Shown: piece by piece, positions 3,218 to 23,757 of the stretch
How the letters are laid out: each line of letters starts with the position of its first letter
Position numbering within the stretch: the stretch's first letter is position 1
IMG/VR virus record: IMGVR_UViG_3300008450_000175
Location: 1 to 35,952 of that record
Reading direction: 5' to 3' (one strand)
From: a virus
Length of the DNA stretch: 35,952 nt
Position numbers and translations under genes: made by a program
Notes under the pieces: generated by a model
Databases searched by the model: none
Seen by the model: the letters and a program-made list of their open reading frames with translations, nothing else
What the model was told of the DNA's origin: nothing

Positions 3218-3591
3218 AAACCAAGCTGACCCTCGCAGCCCTTCCTCCGAGCGTCAACGCGATATGGCGTCACGGCAAAGGCGGCAAGACATACCGAACA
3301 GCGGCCTACATGACGTTTATTCGAGGAGAGGAATGGAACGTCCAGCCGCAGCTTATCAAGCAGCATCGCTTTCGCGGCCCGGTTTATGTGACAATCGCCA
3401 TGAGGCGTCCGCGATCCAATGCGGACCTGGACAATCGCATCAAAGGCATTCTGGACTTTTTGCAGCACGTTGCCGCGATAGACGATGACAAAAACGTATA
3501 CGGCGTCAACGCATTTTGGACCGTTGACCTTCCTGCGGGCGTGGCTGCGGAAATATCCATTGTTCAGGCTGACGCGCTGGAGGCCGCATGA
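3214..3591 (+). CDS. rusA: RusA-family Holliday junction resolvase
   Basis: About 125 residues from ATG 3214; a GTG at 3205 is an alternative start. Visible family features are the N-terminal LPPSVNAIWR with Y.T..Y..F, and the acidic active-site cluster SNADLDNRIKGILDFLQ plus AIDDDKNV. RusA dimers cut four-way junctions using three conserved Asp residues, two in the DLDN region and one in the DDDKNV loop, all present here. Together with ERF it would resolve annealed recombination intermediates or prepare concatemers for packaging. It starts and ends in ATGA overlaps. Confidence 0.92.
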   Translation: MKTKLTLAALPPSVNAIWRHGKGGKTYRTAAYMTFIRGEEWNVQPQLIKQHRFRGPVYVTIAMRRPRSNADLDNRIKGILDFLQHVAAIDDDKNVYGVNAFWTVDLPAGVAAEISIVQADALEAA

Positions 3592-4100
3592 ACTGGACCC
3601 CCGAAACCATTGACGAACTGATCCGCCTCTGGCGTCAGGGCCTCACGTCTTACCAGCTAGCCAAACATTTCAACACAACCCGCAATAGCATCATGGGCAA
3701 ACTCCACCGCGAGAAACTGCGCCGCGCCACTCAGGGCGAACCGATAGAGCGCCGCACCATCGCCAATACCGGAACCATCACCAAACGACGCTACACACGG
3801 AGGGAAGCCATGTTGACTTTGCCTGAACGTGCCGGGTCTGTATTGCGTATTGTAGAGCCTGCTCCCGTGGTACCAGATCAGGGGCAGCTTGCTAGCATCG
3901 TGGACGTGACCGGGTGTCGCTGGCCCGTGAAGGATGACCCGGAGTTTATAGGCGGCTTTGCCTTCTGCAACCACGCCCAGCGGGACGGCTCGGCGTATTG
4001 CGAGTATCACGCCCGGATGAACGTCGCCCCGTGGAGCGCAGACGCCAAGCGGCGCACGGAAGCAACGATCAATTACATATTGAAGCGGGTGGCAGCATGA
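3588..4100 (+). CDS. gcrA: GcrA-family cell-cycle regulator
   Basis: The 170-residue protein has the GcrA layout: an N-terminal W-T-ID-L-RLWRQGLTSYQLAKHFNTTRNSIMGKLHR helix-turn-helix (residues 3-41), a variable basic linker, and a C-terminal GCRWPV (C110), FAFCNHA (C127) and AYCEYHA (C138) motif set typical of the family. In Caulobacter, GcrA binds sigma-70 holoenzyme and activates promoters with methylated GANTC sites. A phage copy could redirect host RNA polymerase to phage promoters or match phage transcription to the methylation state of DNA. Its presence is the main argument for an alphaproteobacterial host. Confidence 0.92.
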   Translation: MNWTPETIDELIRLWRQGLTSYQLAKHFNTTRNSIMGKLHREKLRRATQGEPIERRTIANTGTITKRRYTRREAMLTLPERAGSVLRIVEPAPVVPDQGQLASIVDVTGCRWPVKDDPEFIGGFAFCNHAQRDGSAYCEYHARMNVAPWSADAKRRTEATINYILKRVAA

Positions 4101-4695: not shown

Positions 4696-4784
4696 GTACG
4701 GCAGCCTTTCTTCTCATAGCCGTGATTGCCGAGTGCGCCGTCCTGTGGCTGGCCTATTCAATGGGGAGGGACATGGCGCAATGA
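4692..4784 (+). CDS. 30-residue single-pass membrane protein
   Basis: Starts in ATGA with the previous gene and ends in ATGA with the replication gene. The product is mostly one hydrophobic helix (AAFLLIAVIAECAVLWLAYS) with a short MGRDMAQ tail. It has no other coding frame over most of its length. Unknown role; the exact fit between two overlaps supports that it is translated. Confidence 0.65.
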   Translation: MSTAAFLLIAVIAECAVLWLAYSMGRDMAQ

Positions 4785-5551
4785 GCAGATGGTTCCGCAT
4801 GTACTCAGACGTTCTGGACGATCCAAAGGTTCAGAAGCTCCCCGCCGATTTGTTCAAGGCATGGGTCAACCTCCTATGCCTTGCCAGCCGCAATGATGGT
4901 GTGCTTCCCGCACTGGAAGACATCGCCTTCGCGCTCCGCATGTCACAAGATGTCACTGTGACAGTCACAGCGGAGCTTGTGAAAAGGGGTTTGCTTGATG
5001 AGTGTGACGGGCTTTCGCCGCACAATTGGGCCGAACGCCAGTTCAAGAGCGACACGCCGGAAGATGCTAAAGAGCGGAAAAGAAAGCAACGGCAGCGCGA
5101 AAAACAGCAGCAAAACACCGATAATGTCACGGAATGTCACAGTGACAGTCACAACGAAGTCACGCCCCCAGAACAGAGCAGAACAGATACAGAGCAGAGC
5201 AGAGCAGAGCAGACGCCCGCGCGCACTCAAGACCCAAAGCATTGGGAAGAGGTCCAAGACTTTCTCAAACAGCCTGACAGCCTCACGGATTGGGAGGTCG
5301 ACTTCCTGCACTCGGTCAAGTGGAAGCCGTCGCTGACCGAATTGCAGCGCGAAAGCCTCAAGGGCATTCGAGACAAGCTGCGCTCAACCACCAATGGCGG
5401 GTGCATCTTGCCGTCAGTGAAGCGCGGAACCCCGGCGTATGATGCCTGGATTGCCCACTATCGCAAGACCAAGGGCAAGGCCACGTTTTACGAGAAACTG
5501 GACGCCCTCACCGTGCCATCTGAGTTCCCCCCACAGGAGCAAGCGGCGTGA
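4781..5551 (+). CDS. phage replication initiator (replisome organiser type)
   Basis: A 256-residue protein from ATG 4781. The N-terminal part, SRWFRMYSDVLDDPKVQKLPADLFKAWVNLL through LVKRGLLDE (residues 1-70), is the winged-helix domain found in phage replisome organisers and in DnaD/O-like initiators. A strongly basic coiled segment KERKRKQRQREKQ follows, then a low-complexity Glu/Gln/Ser/Arg/Thr linker, then a C-terminal helical domain (LTDWEVDFLHSVKWKPSLTELQRESLKGIRDKL) that would recruit the host helicase loader. As in lambda O, candidate origin repeats lie inside the gene. No helicase or polymerase gene is near, so the host replisome is probably used. Confidence 0.75.
   Translation: MSRWFRMYSDVLDDPKVQKLPADLFKAWVNLLCLASRNDGVLPALEDIAFALRMSQDVTVTVTAELVKRGLLDECDGLSPHNWAERQFKSDTPEDAKERKRKQRQREKQQQNTDNVTECHSDSHNEVTPPEQSRTDTEQSRAEQTPARTQDPKHWEEVQDFLKQPDSLTDWEVDFLHSVKWKPSLTELQRESLKGIRDKLRSTTNGGCILPSVKRGTPAYDAWIAHYRKTKGKATFYEKLDALTVPSEFPPQEQAA
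4940..4971. repeat. iteron-like repeat A inside replication gene
   Basis: The 32-base block contains TGTCAC twice with ten-base spacing, then GTGACA and GTCACA. Its centre is the palindrome TGTCAC-T-GTGACA. It encodes part of the winged-helix domain. Repeat B, 184 bases downstream, has the same order with five mismatches in 32 positions, in a different reading frame, so conservation is at the DNA level. Confidence 0.75.
5124..5163. repeat. iteron-like repeat B inside replication gene
   Basis: Second copy of the 32-base block (5124-5155), followed by one further AGTCAC at 5158-5163. GTCAC occurs at 5126, 5136, 5148 and 5159, i.e. every 10-12 bases, on one face of the helix. It falls in the low-complexity linker of the initiator, the position occupied by the lambda origin iterons in gene O. 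A-rich sequence (5080-5123) just upstream would suit an unwinding element. Confidence 0.72.
5170..5216. repeat. GAGCA pentamer microsatellite
   Basis: Downstream of repeat B the sequence is a run of AGAGC/AGAAC pentamers that encodes the Gln-Ser-Arg-Ala-Glu linker of the initiator. Its strand asymmetry (nearly all purine plus C) may add to easy unwinding, but it may be simple slippage sequence. Confidence 0.7.
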
Positions 5552-6228
5552 CAATTCACTATCACGGCACGCCCCTGACGCCGCGCGACCAGTTGTGGCT
5601 GATGGCGGGCAAGAGCTTTTGCGTGTCCTATGCCAACCCGCAGGATGCAGATATATGCCTGCGGATCGGGCAGTCCGTCATGTGGGATAACGGAGCGTTC
5701 AGCCTGCACACCAAGGGCAGGTCGGTAGATTGGACGGCTTATTATCGCTGGCTGGAACCACGCCTTGGTCATCCGCACTGGGCGGTCATCCCTGATGTAA
5801 TTGACGGCGACGTTGAGGCCAACGCACAACTTGTAAAGGAATGGCCGTTCCGCCGCGAACTGGCCGCGCCAGTTTGGCATCTAGCCGAACCGCTGGATGT
5901 GCTGCTGGGGTTCGCCCAAGACTTTGGCCGGGTGTGCTTCGGCTCGTCTGGTGCCTATTGGCAGGTTGGTTCCGATGCCTGGAGCCGTCGCACAGACGAG
6001 GCGTTTAACGAGATGGCCCGCCGTGGGCCGTTGCCGTGGGTCCACATGCTGCGCGGTATGGCCGTAGCCGGGAAACGCTGGCCGTTTGCCTCGGTTGATA
6101 GCGTGAACGTGGCGCGAAATTTTAACTCGTCAAACCAGTGTCCCGAAGCGATGGCACGAGTAATTGACGCCGTTCAATGCCCAATCAAGTGGAAATATCA
6201 ACCCCAGCAAATGGACCTTATTGCATGA
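5548..6228 (+). CDS. TGT/DpdA-like 7-deazaguanine transglycosylase
   Basis: A 226-residue protein starting GTG at 5548 in a GTGA overlap. Visible segments: MWDNGAFSLHTKG (the D-x-G/N-GAF motif that corresponds to the DSGGF catalytic region of tRNA-guanine transglycosylases), AVIPDVIDGDVEAN, PVWHLAEPLDVLL, GRVCFGSSGAYWQVGSDAW, and HMLRGM near residue 166. These occur in this order in the short phage TGT-like/DpdA proteins that exchange guanine in DNA for a preQ0 derivative. It is shorter than bacterial TGT. The next gene is a transporter for the same precursors, which strongly supports the assignment. Substrate (DNA or tRNA) is not decided by sequence alone. Confidence 0.72.
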   Translation: MTIHYHGTPLTPRDQLWLMAGKSFCVSYANPQDADICLRIGQSVMWDNGAFSLHTKGRSVDWTAYYRWLEPRLGHPHWAVIPDVIDGDVEANAQLVKEWPFRRELAAPVWHLAEPLDVLLGFAQDFGRVCFGSSGAYWQVGSDAWSRRTDEAFNEMARRGPLPWVHMLRGMAVAGKRWPFASVDSVNVARNFNSSNQCPEAMARVIDAVQCPIKWKYQPQQMDLIA

Positions 6229-6746
6229 AATTCTTGGTCTTCCTCGCCTATCTCGCCACGATCCCCGCCGCCAATTGGCTCATCGGCAATGTGGGCACCA
6301 TGTGCATTCCCAACGGCCCCTGCCTGATTCCGGTGGCCCCCGGCCTCATGGCCCCTTCTGGCGTCCTGATGATCGGCGCGGCGCTGGTGCTGCGGGACGC
6401 GGTGCAGCAGCTGCTTGGCATTCGATGGGCCTTCCTCGCCATCGCCTGTGGTGTGGTACTGTCCGTTCTGGTGGCCCCGCCTGCCTTGGTCATCGCCAGC
6501 GCCACAGCATTTGCAATTGCGGAATTGTTAGACCTTGGAGTCTACACACCGCTCCGCAAGCGCAATCTCAGCCTCGCCGTGCTGGCCTCGGGTGTTGTGG
6601 GGGCGGCGGCTGACTCTGCGGTGTTCCTGTGGTTGGCGTTCGGTTCGCTCGACTTCATGGCGGGCCAGCTTGTCGGCAAACTGTGGATGACGATAGTTGC
6701 GGCGGGTGTGTTGGCGCTGGTGCACAATCGCACGGTGCGCGCCTGA
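6225..6746 (+). CDS. YhhQ/VUT-family queuosine-precursor transporter
   Basis: A 173-residue membrane protein beginning at ATG 6225 (ATGA overlap). It has about six hydrophobic segments: FLVFLAYLATIPAANWLIG, MIGAALVLRDAVQQLLG, FLAIACGVVLSVLVAPP, ALVIASATAFAIAELLDLGVYTPLRKR, LASGVVGAAADSAVFLWLAFG and GKLWMTIVAAGVLALVHN. RDAVQ-x-LG, AFAIAEL-D-VY-PLR and the ADS-FL-AFGS motifs are those of the VUT family (YhhQ in E. coli), inner-membrane importers of preQ0/preQ1. A phage copy beside a DpdA-like gene would supply the base from outside or from host pools. The first segments are shorter than in YhhQ (about 220 aa). Confidence 0.85.
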   Translation: MKFLVFLAYLATIPAANWLIGNVGTMCIPNGPCLIPVAPGLMAPSGVLMIGAALVLRDAVQQLLGIRWAFLAIACGVVLSVLVAPPALVIASATAFAIAELLDLGVYTPLRKRNLSLAVLASGVVGAAADSAVFLWLAFGSLDFMAGQLVGKLWMTIVAAGVLALVHNRTVRA

Positions 6747-7204
6747 TGTGGTTAGTCATCCGCACCGACCACGGCAAGGAAGCCTATGTAGCCCGACAGG
6801 TGATGTTCCGGGGCTGGGATGCCTGGGTTCCCGCGCAGATCATCGTCTGCCGCCCCGCCATCGCGCGCCGGGTGTCGGCCAAGTCGCACCTCCAGAAGAC
6901 CAAGGAACTCGCCATCCTCCCCCGCCGAGTCTTTGCCGCCGTGCCTATGTGGGCAGTGCATCAGGCCGAACTAGACGGGCTGCGGCACATGATGGGCTTT
7001 GAACAAAATGCGGACCAGACGCTGGTCCAAATCAACGATGCGGAGATTAGCCGATTCCGGGGCGCAATCGACGCGGAGAACATGGCCGCGCTGGCGCTGG
7101 CGACCAAAGCCTCACGAAAGCAAAAACAACGCTGGCGTTCATTGCACGATGCATTGCTAGACATGATTGAGGCGGCCAAGGGGCAGATGGAGCAGGCAGC
7201 ATAA
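6746..7204 (+). CDS. NusG N-terminal-domain (NGN) transcription factor
   Basis: ATG 6746 overlaps the previous stop as TGATG; the longer in-frame reading upstream belongs to the transporter gene. Residues 1-115 match the NGN pattern: MWLVIRTDHGKEAYVARQVMFRGWDAWVPAQIIV, then KTKELAILPRRVFAAVP, then GLRHMMGFEQNADQTLVQINDAEISRFRGAI, equivalent to the start, the FPGYVFV strand and the GVxGFV-x-x-x-P-x-PI-x-DEE segment of NusG/RfaH. There is no KOW domain; the C-terminus is a helical stretch (KQKQRWRSLHDALLDMIEAAK). An NGN-only protein can bind the polymerase clamp without recruiting Rho, so antitermination of late or early operons is the likely job. Confidence 0.8.
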   Translation: MWLVIRTDHGKEAYVARQVMFRGWDAWVPAQIIVCRPAIARRVSAKSHLQKTKELAILPRRVFAAVPMWAVHQAELDGLRHMMGFEQNADQTLVQINDAEISRFRGAIDAENMAALALATKASRKQKQRWRSLHDALLDMIEAAKGQMEQAA

Positions 7205-7740
7205 TGGGTGAGCGTCCTTCCGAATATGCCCGCGACAGCAATGATTGGTACGTTGAGCCGGAATGGGCGGTTGAGGCTTTGAAAGCCCGCGTTCCGCTTA
7301 TCGGCCAAATCCATGATCCGTGTTGCGGGATGGGTACGATTCCGCGCGTCATGGGCGGCACGGGTGCTGATCTGGTGGACCGGGGATATGGCTTCCCGCA
7401 GCGGGACTTTCTCAAGGACTTCGCAGCTTACGACAACATTGTCACCAATCCGCCTTACGGCATTGCACAGCAGATCATTGAACACGCCTTGAGGACTGCC
7501 AAGTGGCGGGTTGCGGCGCTTGTCCAGGTGAAGTTTCTGGCCTCACAGCGCCGTCACGGCCTGTTCACGCGAGATGAAACAGAGAAGGTGCTGATGTTCA
7601 GCCGCCGCCCGTCCATGCCGCCCGGTGAAATTCTGGAAGAGAAGGGCGAAGACGTGCGCGGTGGAGGGTCAATAGACTTCTGTTGGATTGTGTGGTGCCG
7701 GGGCAATCTTGCGCCCACGGTTATTGATTGGGTGAAGTGA
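7204..7740 (+). CDS. N6A/N4C-type DNA methyltransferase
   Basis: A 178-residue protein starting in TAATG. Motif I is DPCCGMGTIPRVM (about residues 38-50) and motif IV is NIVTNPPYGIAQQIIEHAL, where NPPY is the catalytic tetrad of amino-methyltransferases. The N-terminus (RDSNDWYVEPEWAVEALKA) resembles phage methyltransferases of the short, single-domain type with no evident target-recognition domain, so specificity is not predictable. It lies directly after the deazaguanine genes and the NGN factor. Methylation of phage DNA against host restriction is the usual role. Confidence 0.85.
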   Translation: MGERPSEYARDSNDWYVEPEWAVEALKARVPLIGQIHDPCCGMGTIPRVMGGTGADLVDRGYGFPQRDFLKDFAAYDNIVTNPPYGIAQQIIEHALRTAKWRVAALVQVKFLASQRRHGLFTRDETEKVLMFSRRPSMPPGEILEEKGEDVRGGGSIDFCWIVWCRGNLAPTVIDWVK

Positions 7741-21574: not shown

Positions 21575-21789
21575 ACGGCAACGTCTTCACGTTCCCCAAC
21601 AAGGGAAAGATGACGGCAAATTCGGTCCTTGATGATGCGCGTGACAAGCTGGAGGACTGCATTGTCCTTGGCGTCACGAAGGAAGGGGATGCCTATTACA
21701 GTGTGTTCGCGCAAGACGCGGGGCAAGTCATCTTTCTACTCCGCGCACTTGAACACGTTGTACTCACACAGGAGTTGAGCGGCGAATGA
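21571..21789 (+). CDS. small hypothetical, 72 aa
   Basis: ATGA overlap with the glycosyltransferase. Contains VLGVTKEGDAYYSVFAQDAGQVIFLLRALEHVVL: a short beta hairpin followed by an amphipathic helix, as in small phage proteins of unknown function. No motif. Confidence 0.6.
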   Translation: MNGNVFTFPNKGKMTANSVLDDARDKLEDCIVLGVTKEGDAYYSVFAQDAGQVIFLLRALEHVVLTQELSGE

Positions 21790-22301
21790 TGCTGATCACG
21801 CCAGAATATCGTGAACTGAACCGCAAGTTACATGCAACCAATCCCGTTTATGGCGTCAGCGGGTTCCGTTATGTCGATGCTGCCAGGAGACTGTCTCAAT
21901 GGGGCAGGCTTGACATTCTGGACTACGGATGCGGCAAGGCCGTCCTCGCAGAGAAGTTAGGCCCCGCATACCGCGTCACCAATTACGACCCTTGCATTGA
22001 AGGGCTTGACACGCCGCCCGAACCGCATGACGTGGTGATGTGCACCGATGTCATGGAGCATGTTGAACCCGAGTTCATCATGCCCGTTCTGAAGGACATT
22101 CGGCGTCTGACGCGCGAATTTGCGTTCTTTGTCGTATCGACGGAGCCCGCGCAAAAGGTCCTAGAGGATGGCCGGAACGCCCACATTTCGCTTCATCCGC
22201 CGAAGTGGTGGCTGGAACGGATGGAAGAAGCAGGGTTTGAGGTGCTTGAGACGATTGACGATGACGGCAAGCACCTGACGTTCGGAGCCGTTTTGCGGTG
22301 A
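21786..22301 (+). CDS. SAM-dependent methyltransferase
   Basis: Start in ATGATG after the previous stop (ATG 21786 or 21789). Motif I is ILDYGCGKAVLAEKLG (about residues 42-57), followed by NYDPCIEG, the acidic end of strand 2, and HDVVMCTDVMEHVEPEFI, motif IV-like of small-molecule methyltransferases. The C-terminal PPKWWLERMEEAGFEVLETIDDDG is typical of UbiG/COQ5-like enzymes. Probable substrate is a sugar or glycan intermediate in view of the neighbours. Confidence 0.82.
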   Translation: MMLITPEYRELNRKLHATNPVYGVSGFRYVDAARRLSQWGRLDILDYGCGKAVLAEKLGPAYRVTNYDPCIEGLDTPPEPHDVVMCTDVMEHVEPEFIMPVLKDIRRLTREFAFFVVSTEPAQKVLEDGRNAHISLHPPKWWLERMEEAGFEVLETIDDDGKHLTFGAVLR

Positions 22302-22972
22302 TGGACGGCGACCTGAAAGCGGCATGGAAGCTGCTTGTTAAAAACGGATACCAGTTCTATCGCAACAAGATATGGAAGGAAGACCCGCAGTTCGTGGCCG
22401 TTCGCCAGAAGGTCAAGGACATAGGGATTAGCGGGATACCGGATGACCGTTGTTTTTTCCTTCTTGAGGCGGCGCGGAAACTGACGGTTCCCGGCGATGT
22501 GGTGGAATGCGGCGTGAGGTTCGGACGCTCAACCTACTACATCGCCAGCGGCACGGATCGCGGGATTGAGGTATTTGACTCATTTGAGGGGCTTTCGGCA
22601 CCATCTGAGGAAGATGGCGACAGTTGGAAGGCGGGCGATTGCCTCGCATCCCTTGACGAGTTTGAAGCAAACCTTGACGAGTTCGCGCACCGCATATCGG
22701 TTCACAAGGGTTGGATACCCGACACGCTGAAGGAATGCAGGGCAACGCAGATTGCGCTGCTTCACCTGGACCTTGACTTGTATGGGCCGACACTGGCGGC
22801 GCTGACCTATTTCTGGCCCCGCGTGGCAAGGGGCGGGTTTGTGATCTGCGACGATTACGGCTCGACGCTCTGCCCCGGAGCGAAGGCCGCATTTGACGAG
22901 TTCTTTGCCGGCAAAACGGAAAAACCGCTGGGGTTGCCTAGCGCACAATGCATCGTGACGAAACTCAACTGA
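22301..22972 (+). CDS. TylF/MycF-like O-methyltransferase
   Basis: ATG 22301 overlaps the previous stop as TGATG; GTG 22298 is the alternative. The 223-residue product has FFLLEAARKLTVPGDVVECGVRFGRSTYYIASG, GIEVFDSFEGLSAPSEEDGD, HRISVHKGWIPDTL, IALLHLDLDLYGPTLAALTYFWPRVARGGFVICDDYGS. DSFEGL and the LHLDLDLYxPT and GG-ICDDYG segments are family marks of TylF/MycF, metal-dependent sugar O-methyltransferases of macrolide biosynthesis and LPS decoration. Here it probably methylates a sugar. Confidence 0.85.
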   Translation: MDGDLKAAWKLLVKNGYQFYRNKIWKEDPQFVAVRQKVKDIGISGIPDDRCFFLLEAARKLTVPGDVVECGVRFGRSTYYIASGTDRGIEVFDSFEGLSAPSEEDGDSWKAGDCLASLDEFEANLDEFAHRISVHKGWIPDTLKECRATQIALLHLDLDLYGPTLAALTYFWPRVARGGFVICDDYGSTLCPGAKAAFDEFFAGKTEKPLGLPSAQCIVTKLN

Positions 22973-23757
22973 AAGGACACCACTTGTACAAGGCGCTGAC
23001 GAGAGCGGACATTCTCAACGTATGGATTGGCTATGACAGCCGTGAGCCCGAAGCCTTTGAGGTTCTGAAGGCATCCATCCTGAAGCACGCCACGATGGCA
23101 GTGAATATCCAGAAGCTTGATGAACGCGCCTTGCGCCATGCGGGCCTCTACCGCCGCACATGGCAGGCTGACGGGTGCCAGAAGGTGGACAAGATCGACG
23201 GCAAGCCCTTCAGCACGGAGTTTTCGTTCACGCGGTTCCTGGTGCCTGCGCTTCAGCAGTGGGAAGGCTGGGGGCTCTTCGTAGATTGCGACCAATTGTT
23301 CCTGACGGACATTGCCGAAATGCTGCACGAAATGGACCCGGCGAAAGCGGTTCAGGTGTGCCAACAGAACTATCAGCCGACCGAAGGGCTGAAGATGGAT
23401 GGCCAGAAACAGGAGCGTTACTACCGCAAGAACTGGTCAAGCGTGATGCTGTTCAACTGCGCGCATCCGTCAAATCGCTGGCTGACGCCGGATGTGGTGA
23501 ACGCGGAACCCGGCTCATGGCTGCATGGTTTTGGGTGGCTGCCGGATGGCGATATTGGCGAGTTAGATCATGGGTGGAATTGGATTGCGGATTGCACAAA
23601 GGTAAAGCCGAAGAACGTACATTTTACCTTGGGCGCATGTTGGTTTCCTCATCTTCGCCACGCTGATCAGCCATACTTTGAAGAATGGCGGCAAGCAGCC
23701 AAAGAGATTGGCGTGTGGCGTCATATGTGTGAAAAACAGGACAAGCAAACTGCATGA
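22948..23757 (+). CDS. second glycosyltransferase with DxD-like motif
   Basis: Starts 25 bases inside the TylF-like gene. The 269-residue product has FSFTRFLVPALQQWEGWGLFVDCDQLFLTDIAEML, where FVDCDQLF is the D-x-D metal/nucleotide-sugar site, then QERYYRKNWSSVMLFNCAHPSNRWLTPDVVN, LHGFGWLPDGDIGEL and a C-terminal helix. The pattern fits the GT8-like phage glycosyltransferases that recur in phage cargo. With the TPR-GT and two methyltransferases it forms a glycan module. Acceptor unknown. Confidence 0.75.
   Translation: MHRDETQLKGHHLYKALTRADILNVWIGYDSREPEAFEVLKASILKHATMAVNIQKLDERALRHAGLYRRTWQADGCQKVDKIDGKPFSTEFSFTRFLVPALQQWEGWGLFVDCDQLFLTDIAEMLHEMDPAKAVQVCQQNYQPTEGLKMDGQKQERYYRKNWSSVMLFNCAHPSNRWLTPDVVNAEPGSWLHGFGWLPDGDIGELDHGWNWIADCTKVKPKNVHFTLGACWFPHLRHADQPYFEEWRQAAKEIGVWRHMCEKQDKQTA

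Follow-up and report, generated by a model that had tools for sequence, protein, structure and literature searches.

The window considered here (the whole stretch of viral DNA that was analysed, an IMG/VR record of 35,952 bases) carries two overlapping genes, one for a small enzyme predicted to resemble TGT and DpdA and the other for a short membrane protein of the VUT family. The pair and its immediate surroundings comprise the following features:

4733..5551, plus strand: DnaD-like/replication-initiation gene upstream, context outside the module (phrog_3926, E 1e-15)
5548..6228, plus strand: predicted compact TGT/DpdA-like base transglycosylase of 226 aa without the Zn-binding CxCxxC motif (GTG start; phrog_887, AF2, VIA-align, invariant D47 and D184)
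6225..6228, plus strand: ATGA stop/start overlap coupling the enzyme and VUT genes (sequence)
6225..6746, plus strand: short VUT/DUF165 (Vut_1, phrog_4899) membrane protein of 173 aa, probable 7-deazaguanine precursor importer (ATG start; PF02592, phrog_4899)
6746..7204, plus strand: NusG-like antiterminator downstream, context (phrog_6386, E 2e-7; start codon at 6746 read from the sequence)

The end of the upstream replication gene overlaps the enzyme start in a GTGA and the VUT gene passes into the antiterminator gene through a TGATG junction (both from the sequence), and because of these contacts with both flanking genes the enzyme and VUT genes are assigned to a densely packed operon. The enzyme start is supported by a good Shine-Dalgarno sequence (AGGAG at 5536-5540) ahead of the GTG and by the M(T)IHYHG beginning common to its relatives, while the 4-base overlap between the two genes recurs unchanged in related loci (L002-L016 and others). 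Purifying selection on both genes is strong, with dN/dS values of approximately 0.04-0.08 against relatives at synonymous sites that are near saturation. No Rfam elements (e.g., a preQ1 riboswitch) were found in the window or in nine related loci. Two genes downstream of the pair lies a DNA methyltransferase-like gene (7204-7740, phrog_799, E 1e-46), and in some relatives (e.g., L073, L156, and MED16) the enzyme gene likewise has methyltransferases nearby. Elsewhere in the window, a homologue of the cell-cycle regulator GcrA (3588-4100, PF07750, E 9e-22) points to an alphaproteobacterial host, and the structural region contains a row of methyltransferase, TylF-like, and unmatched genes, the last glycosyltransferase-like by eye (21786-23757).

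All the TGT-like motifs that the first-pass annotation had named in the enzyme are present (DNGAF at 47, PDVID at 82, VWH at 109, GSSG at 132, and HMLRG at 166). Residues 1-193 match phrog_887, annotated as queuine tRNA-ribosyltransferase (E 2e-41), and a tblastn search connects the enzyme with the DpdA of the Pantoea phage MED16 (E 6e-30, 38% identity), the closest relative found with measured DNA. Among 51 relatives, H4, H6, D47-N48-G49, W78, D83, W110-H111, G132-S133, H166, R169, D184-S185, and D207 are invariant. Two of these residues, D47 (in DNG) and D184, are consistent in order and spacing with the DSGG and FDC motifs, with the profile alignment (hhalign) of the family to the narrow tRNA TGT profile being not significant; judged by this order and spacing, D47 would be the general base and D184 the nucleophile. 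At position 187, three residues after D184 in the DSVN/DSTD motif, 42 of the 51 relatives have N and 9 have D, which may reflect functional divergence within the family. Searches of PDB sequences with the enzyme profile gave no match, the Pfam TGT family PF01702 produced no row for the window enzyme at E up to 1, and scanning viral sequences with the Opt-719 enzyme as query produced no match. Since the Zn motif CxCxxC of tRNA TGTs is missing (0/51 family members), we do not call the window enzyme a tRNA TGT.

An AF2 model of the enzyme (pLDDT 88.9, pTM 0.86) was compared with known structures. The top 50 displayed VIA-align entries all belonged to the TGT family (Z 13.9-15.5) and the BFVD matches were phage queuine tRNA-ribosyltransferases; plain Foldseek against PDB was not specific, ranking generic TIM barrels first with E-values above 5e-3. 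From the fold ranking, the PHROG homology, and the genomic context, the enzyme is probably TGT/DpdA-like. The VIA-align leaders were Cap10 (9ntn_B, Z 15.5) and an archaeal (archaeosine) TGT (Z 14.9), effectively a tie that does not discriminate between the two. Cap10 belongs to type IV CBASS and has as its ligand a protein whose N-terminus carries a 7-amido-7-deazaguanine base (PMC11996544), and a phage enzyme repurposed in the same way for protein conjugation, perhaps as a decoy or counter-defence, would also account for this top match. We consider such a role very improbable, as Cap10 is encoded in an operon with the QueC-like Cap9 and a CD-NTase, whereas around the window enzyme no Cap9 was found in the record, none of the scanned ORFs was recognisable as a CD-NTase, and the conserved partner is a transporter rather than a signalling enzyme.

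The assignment of the second gene product to the VUT family held as well, its match to Vut_1 (PF02592; E 5.5e-10, profile positions 61-148 of 152) reaching 40.2 bits, above the cut-off of 27.2, and the overlap with the enzyme gene was confirmed at 6225-6228. It also matches phrog_4899 (E 5e-38), and a PDB sequence search with it returned no match. In the tree, the phage-type VUTs form a clade apart from the canonical, YhhQ-type chromosomal ones (SH-aLRT 99), and against a phage VUT model the canonical chromosomal proteins score 19-62 bits, while phage-type VUTs in rhizobial islands score 200 or more. By its sequence, the window protein is thus a VUT according to Pfam that lies outside the YhhQ subfamily. 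Given that the VUT family protein YhhQ of E. coli takes part in preQ0 transport (PMC5372724), the window protein probably imports a 7-deazaguanine precursor, with the precedent coming from a different subfamily.

Bacterial dpd islands, which serve DNA 7-deazaguanine modification and restriction, are comparable with the window in that they bring together DpdA, the 7-deazaguanine enzyme, and genes for precursor supply, and a survey with GATOR-GC located YhhQ in approximately 9% of them (PMC11888242). Phage-type VUTs also lie in such islands on rhizobial chromosomes, where they adjoin queC and sit between this gene and dpdK/dpdD. Phage-type short VUTs sit inside or beside dpd islands, next to queC, at five rhizobial loci (L277, L278, L281, L282, and L303), of which L278 was confirmed by PADLOC (DpdA, B, C, D, and K plus QueC) and the others were identified visually by their similar gene content, and for this reason the phage and island transporters are joined in one clade. 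At two further loci (L279 and L283) the VUT follows queC and no dpd island was recognised. The window module differs from the islands in having neither dpdB-dpdK nor que genes and an enzyme of about half the size of bacterial DpdA.

Alternatively, the pair could serve tRNA, with enzyme and importer raising the queuosine-type modification of host or phage tRNA and thereby aiding translation of phage proteins. The nearest folds, tRNA TGTs along with Cap10, agree with this, as does an alphaproteobacterial MAG without a QueC match in which a canonical VUT adjoins tgt, resembling a queuosine salvage operon (L287, G003:C149:13000-17500). Still, it seems quite unlikely given that 48 of the 50 bacterial genomes carrying an enzyme relative have a TGT of their own, that the phage enzyme has neither the Zn motif nor a Pfam TGT match, that its partner's clade is present in islands that modify DNA, and that the DNA of the related phage MED16 is modified, containing dADG at approximately 0.13% of G (PMC8306585). 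Most restriction enzymes tested, including those with G-containing sites, still cut MED16 DNA (PMC8306585), so the protection from restriction that had been put forward in the first-pass annotation is unsupported for this branch.

The association between enzyme and transporter was assessed by searching IMG/VR from each side separately and clustering the loci at 90% identity, which yields clusters that are not phylogenetically independent. As each search selects on one partner only, the adjacency of the other partner is unbiased. With the enzyme as the only query, a VUT gene was adjacent in 37 of 39 non-redundant clusters (22 after and 15 before the enzyme); with VUT as the only query, a TGT-like gene (from the enzyme family or a phrog_15826 protein) was adjacent in all 37 non-redundant loci. 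The next neighbour families in the enzyme-query set were present in 26 and 13 records, and include examples that are ORFs antisense over the pair, and the following ones in at most 12. Mapped by parsimony onto the VUT tree, gene order requires seven changes; for the rows with a phrog_15826 partner the number of label changes is five, at least three of them forced by starred branches, on what is a quick tree with 43 open branches, many of them weak. The pairing is not due to chance and, statistically, constitutes a real module.

Further TGT-like families take part in similar arrangements. A phrog_15826 query, blind to VUT, recovered an adjacent VUT in 41 of 58 informative non-redundant loci, and in phiLM21 a VUT adjoins a third TGT-like family (phrog_1279). 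The phrog_15826 family is a distant relative of the window family (profile alignment E 2e-9) and includes the enzymes of the actinobacteriophages Bhagsy (gp54-55) and Aoka (gp38/gp40), where genes annotated as 'DpdA-like tRNA-guanine transglycosylase' and membrane protein represent a small TGT-like gene with a VUT next to or near it. An AF2 model of phrog_15826 (7 sequences, pLDDT 80) was rejected as stand-alone evidence for a TGT, its TGT matches (Z ~14) being tied with ribulose-phosphate epimerases. Phages infecting cyanobacteria, rhizobia, enterobacteria, and actinobacteria have related pairs, isolates with the pair being Rhizobium phage RHph_N3_2, Pseudanabaena phage Pam5, and Escherichia phage Opt-719, and the architecture is therefore not special to an alphaproteobacterial phage, which makes the earlier framing too narrow. 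Many relatives of the enzyme occur without VUT, namely the longer lambdoid, Vibrio, and other gammaproteobacterial forms. A survey in 2019 reported YhhQ in some phages with no correlation to any phage group (PMC6884629), whereas the compact enzyme family described here is almost always paired with a VUT.

Profile searches for QueC, QueD, and QueE had no match in the whole record and FolE was absent from the Pfam scans of 28 ORFs, so that the earlier statement that the window lacks synthesis genes stands for the first three across the record and for FolE within those scans. Genes for QueD, QueC, or QueE were found in 5/19 records without VUT and in 0/81 records with VUT (Fisher p 1.5e-4, pooled and not corrected for phylogeny), where QueE was searched in the first of the two pooled record sets and the records may be fragments, some from related phages. 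In one VUT-less locus (L069), QueE and QueD directly follow the enzyme gene, and in the Caulobacter phage DMCA, which has no VUT near the enzyme, a QueD-like gene is located just upstream of it. Among 17 records of phrog_15826 phages without VUT, QueD was identified in four (the fourth match being weak, 29 bits) and QueC in three, and in the three VUT-less phages having both (L355, L358, and L380) these genes adjoin or lie near the phrog_15826 gene. Transporter and synthesis genes are thus near-exclusive in these phages.

Most of the 50 bacterial genomes with an enzyme relative also contain QueC, including 9 of the 15 hosts of prophages with both enzyme and VUT. Since most hosts carrying such prophages have QueC, import is not always needed, and depending on the host it may be indispensable or supplementary. 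Accordingly, the earlier proposal that the base is imported rather than made is borne out as regards the coupled VUT and the missing synthesis genes, while import itself is inferred and the host could also supply the base. The enzyme might then use host-made preQ0 on DNA, with VUT as an accessory that tops up the pool or acts in export or superinfection exclusion. The QueC-containing hosts fit this explanation, as do the dpd islands with VUT, where QueC and sometimes QueD or QueE are present as well, and DpdA-only phages such as MED16, whose DNA is modified (PMC8306585). We nevertheless regard it as unlikely, because the tight, repeatedly rebuilt pairing and the exclusion with phage synthesis genes are better explained by substrate supply. 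QueC is also missing more often in hosts of VUT-bearing prophages (6/15 vs. 2/35, p 0.006, with several of the genomes being MAGs); given these MAGs and the lack of significance among isolates only (p 0.49), this loss was set aside as support for import.

Overall, the two genes likely form a module that imports a 7-deazaguanine and inserts it, probably acting on DNA. The short VUT would enter the inner membrane of the host and take up preQ0 or a closely related 7-deazaguanine as the free base, or increase the amount available, and the compact TGT-fold enzyme would then swap guanine for the imported base, most likely in phage DNA. What we infer here is in which direction and with which substrate the VUT transports, which base the enzyme inserts, that it acts on DNA, and how the phage benefits. 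This reading is favoured because of the pairing and its independent re-pairing, the exclusion with synthesis genes, the VUT clade of the dpd islands, the TGT fold, and the precedents of MED16 and YhhQ.

Phage 7-deazaguanine modification, phage preQ0 transporters (PMC8310023), and DpdA-only phages (PMC6884629) are already known, and with the latter two described before, calling the pair an undescribed system was too strong. The DpdA-only phages (group 3 of Hutinet et al. 2019, PMC6884629) and MED16 (PMC8306585) resemble the window in having a TGT-like DpdA without preQ0 synthesis genes, but MED16 has a longer enzyme and no VUT near its dpdA. Seuratvirus-type clusters, such as that of the Enterobacter phage EC151 (PMC8310023), likewise combine a phage DpdA with a predicted preQ0 transporter; EC151 differs in also encoding folE, queD, queE, and queC (PMC8310023), whereas the window has the transporter in place of the synthesis genes. 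The new elements are how tightly and repeatedly compact TGT-like enzymes are paired with a separate clade of short VUTs, together with the make-or-import pattern, and the pairing itself may already be noted in earlier literature.

The module provides a candidate answer to a question outstanding since 2019, i.e., where phages with DpdA alone obtain their base, and it suggests a probable function for phrog_4899 and phrog_15826, both listed as of unknown function. We tentatively raise the possibility that phages widely carry a self-contained cassette for DNA modification that depends on a free base from other microbes outside the infected cell, in which transporter and biosynthesis genes are interchangeable beside several compact TGT-like enzymes. 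The import reading predicts that the modification, and any protection it confers, would depend on the precursor being present in the medium, and both could thus be hidden in standard laboratory culture.
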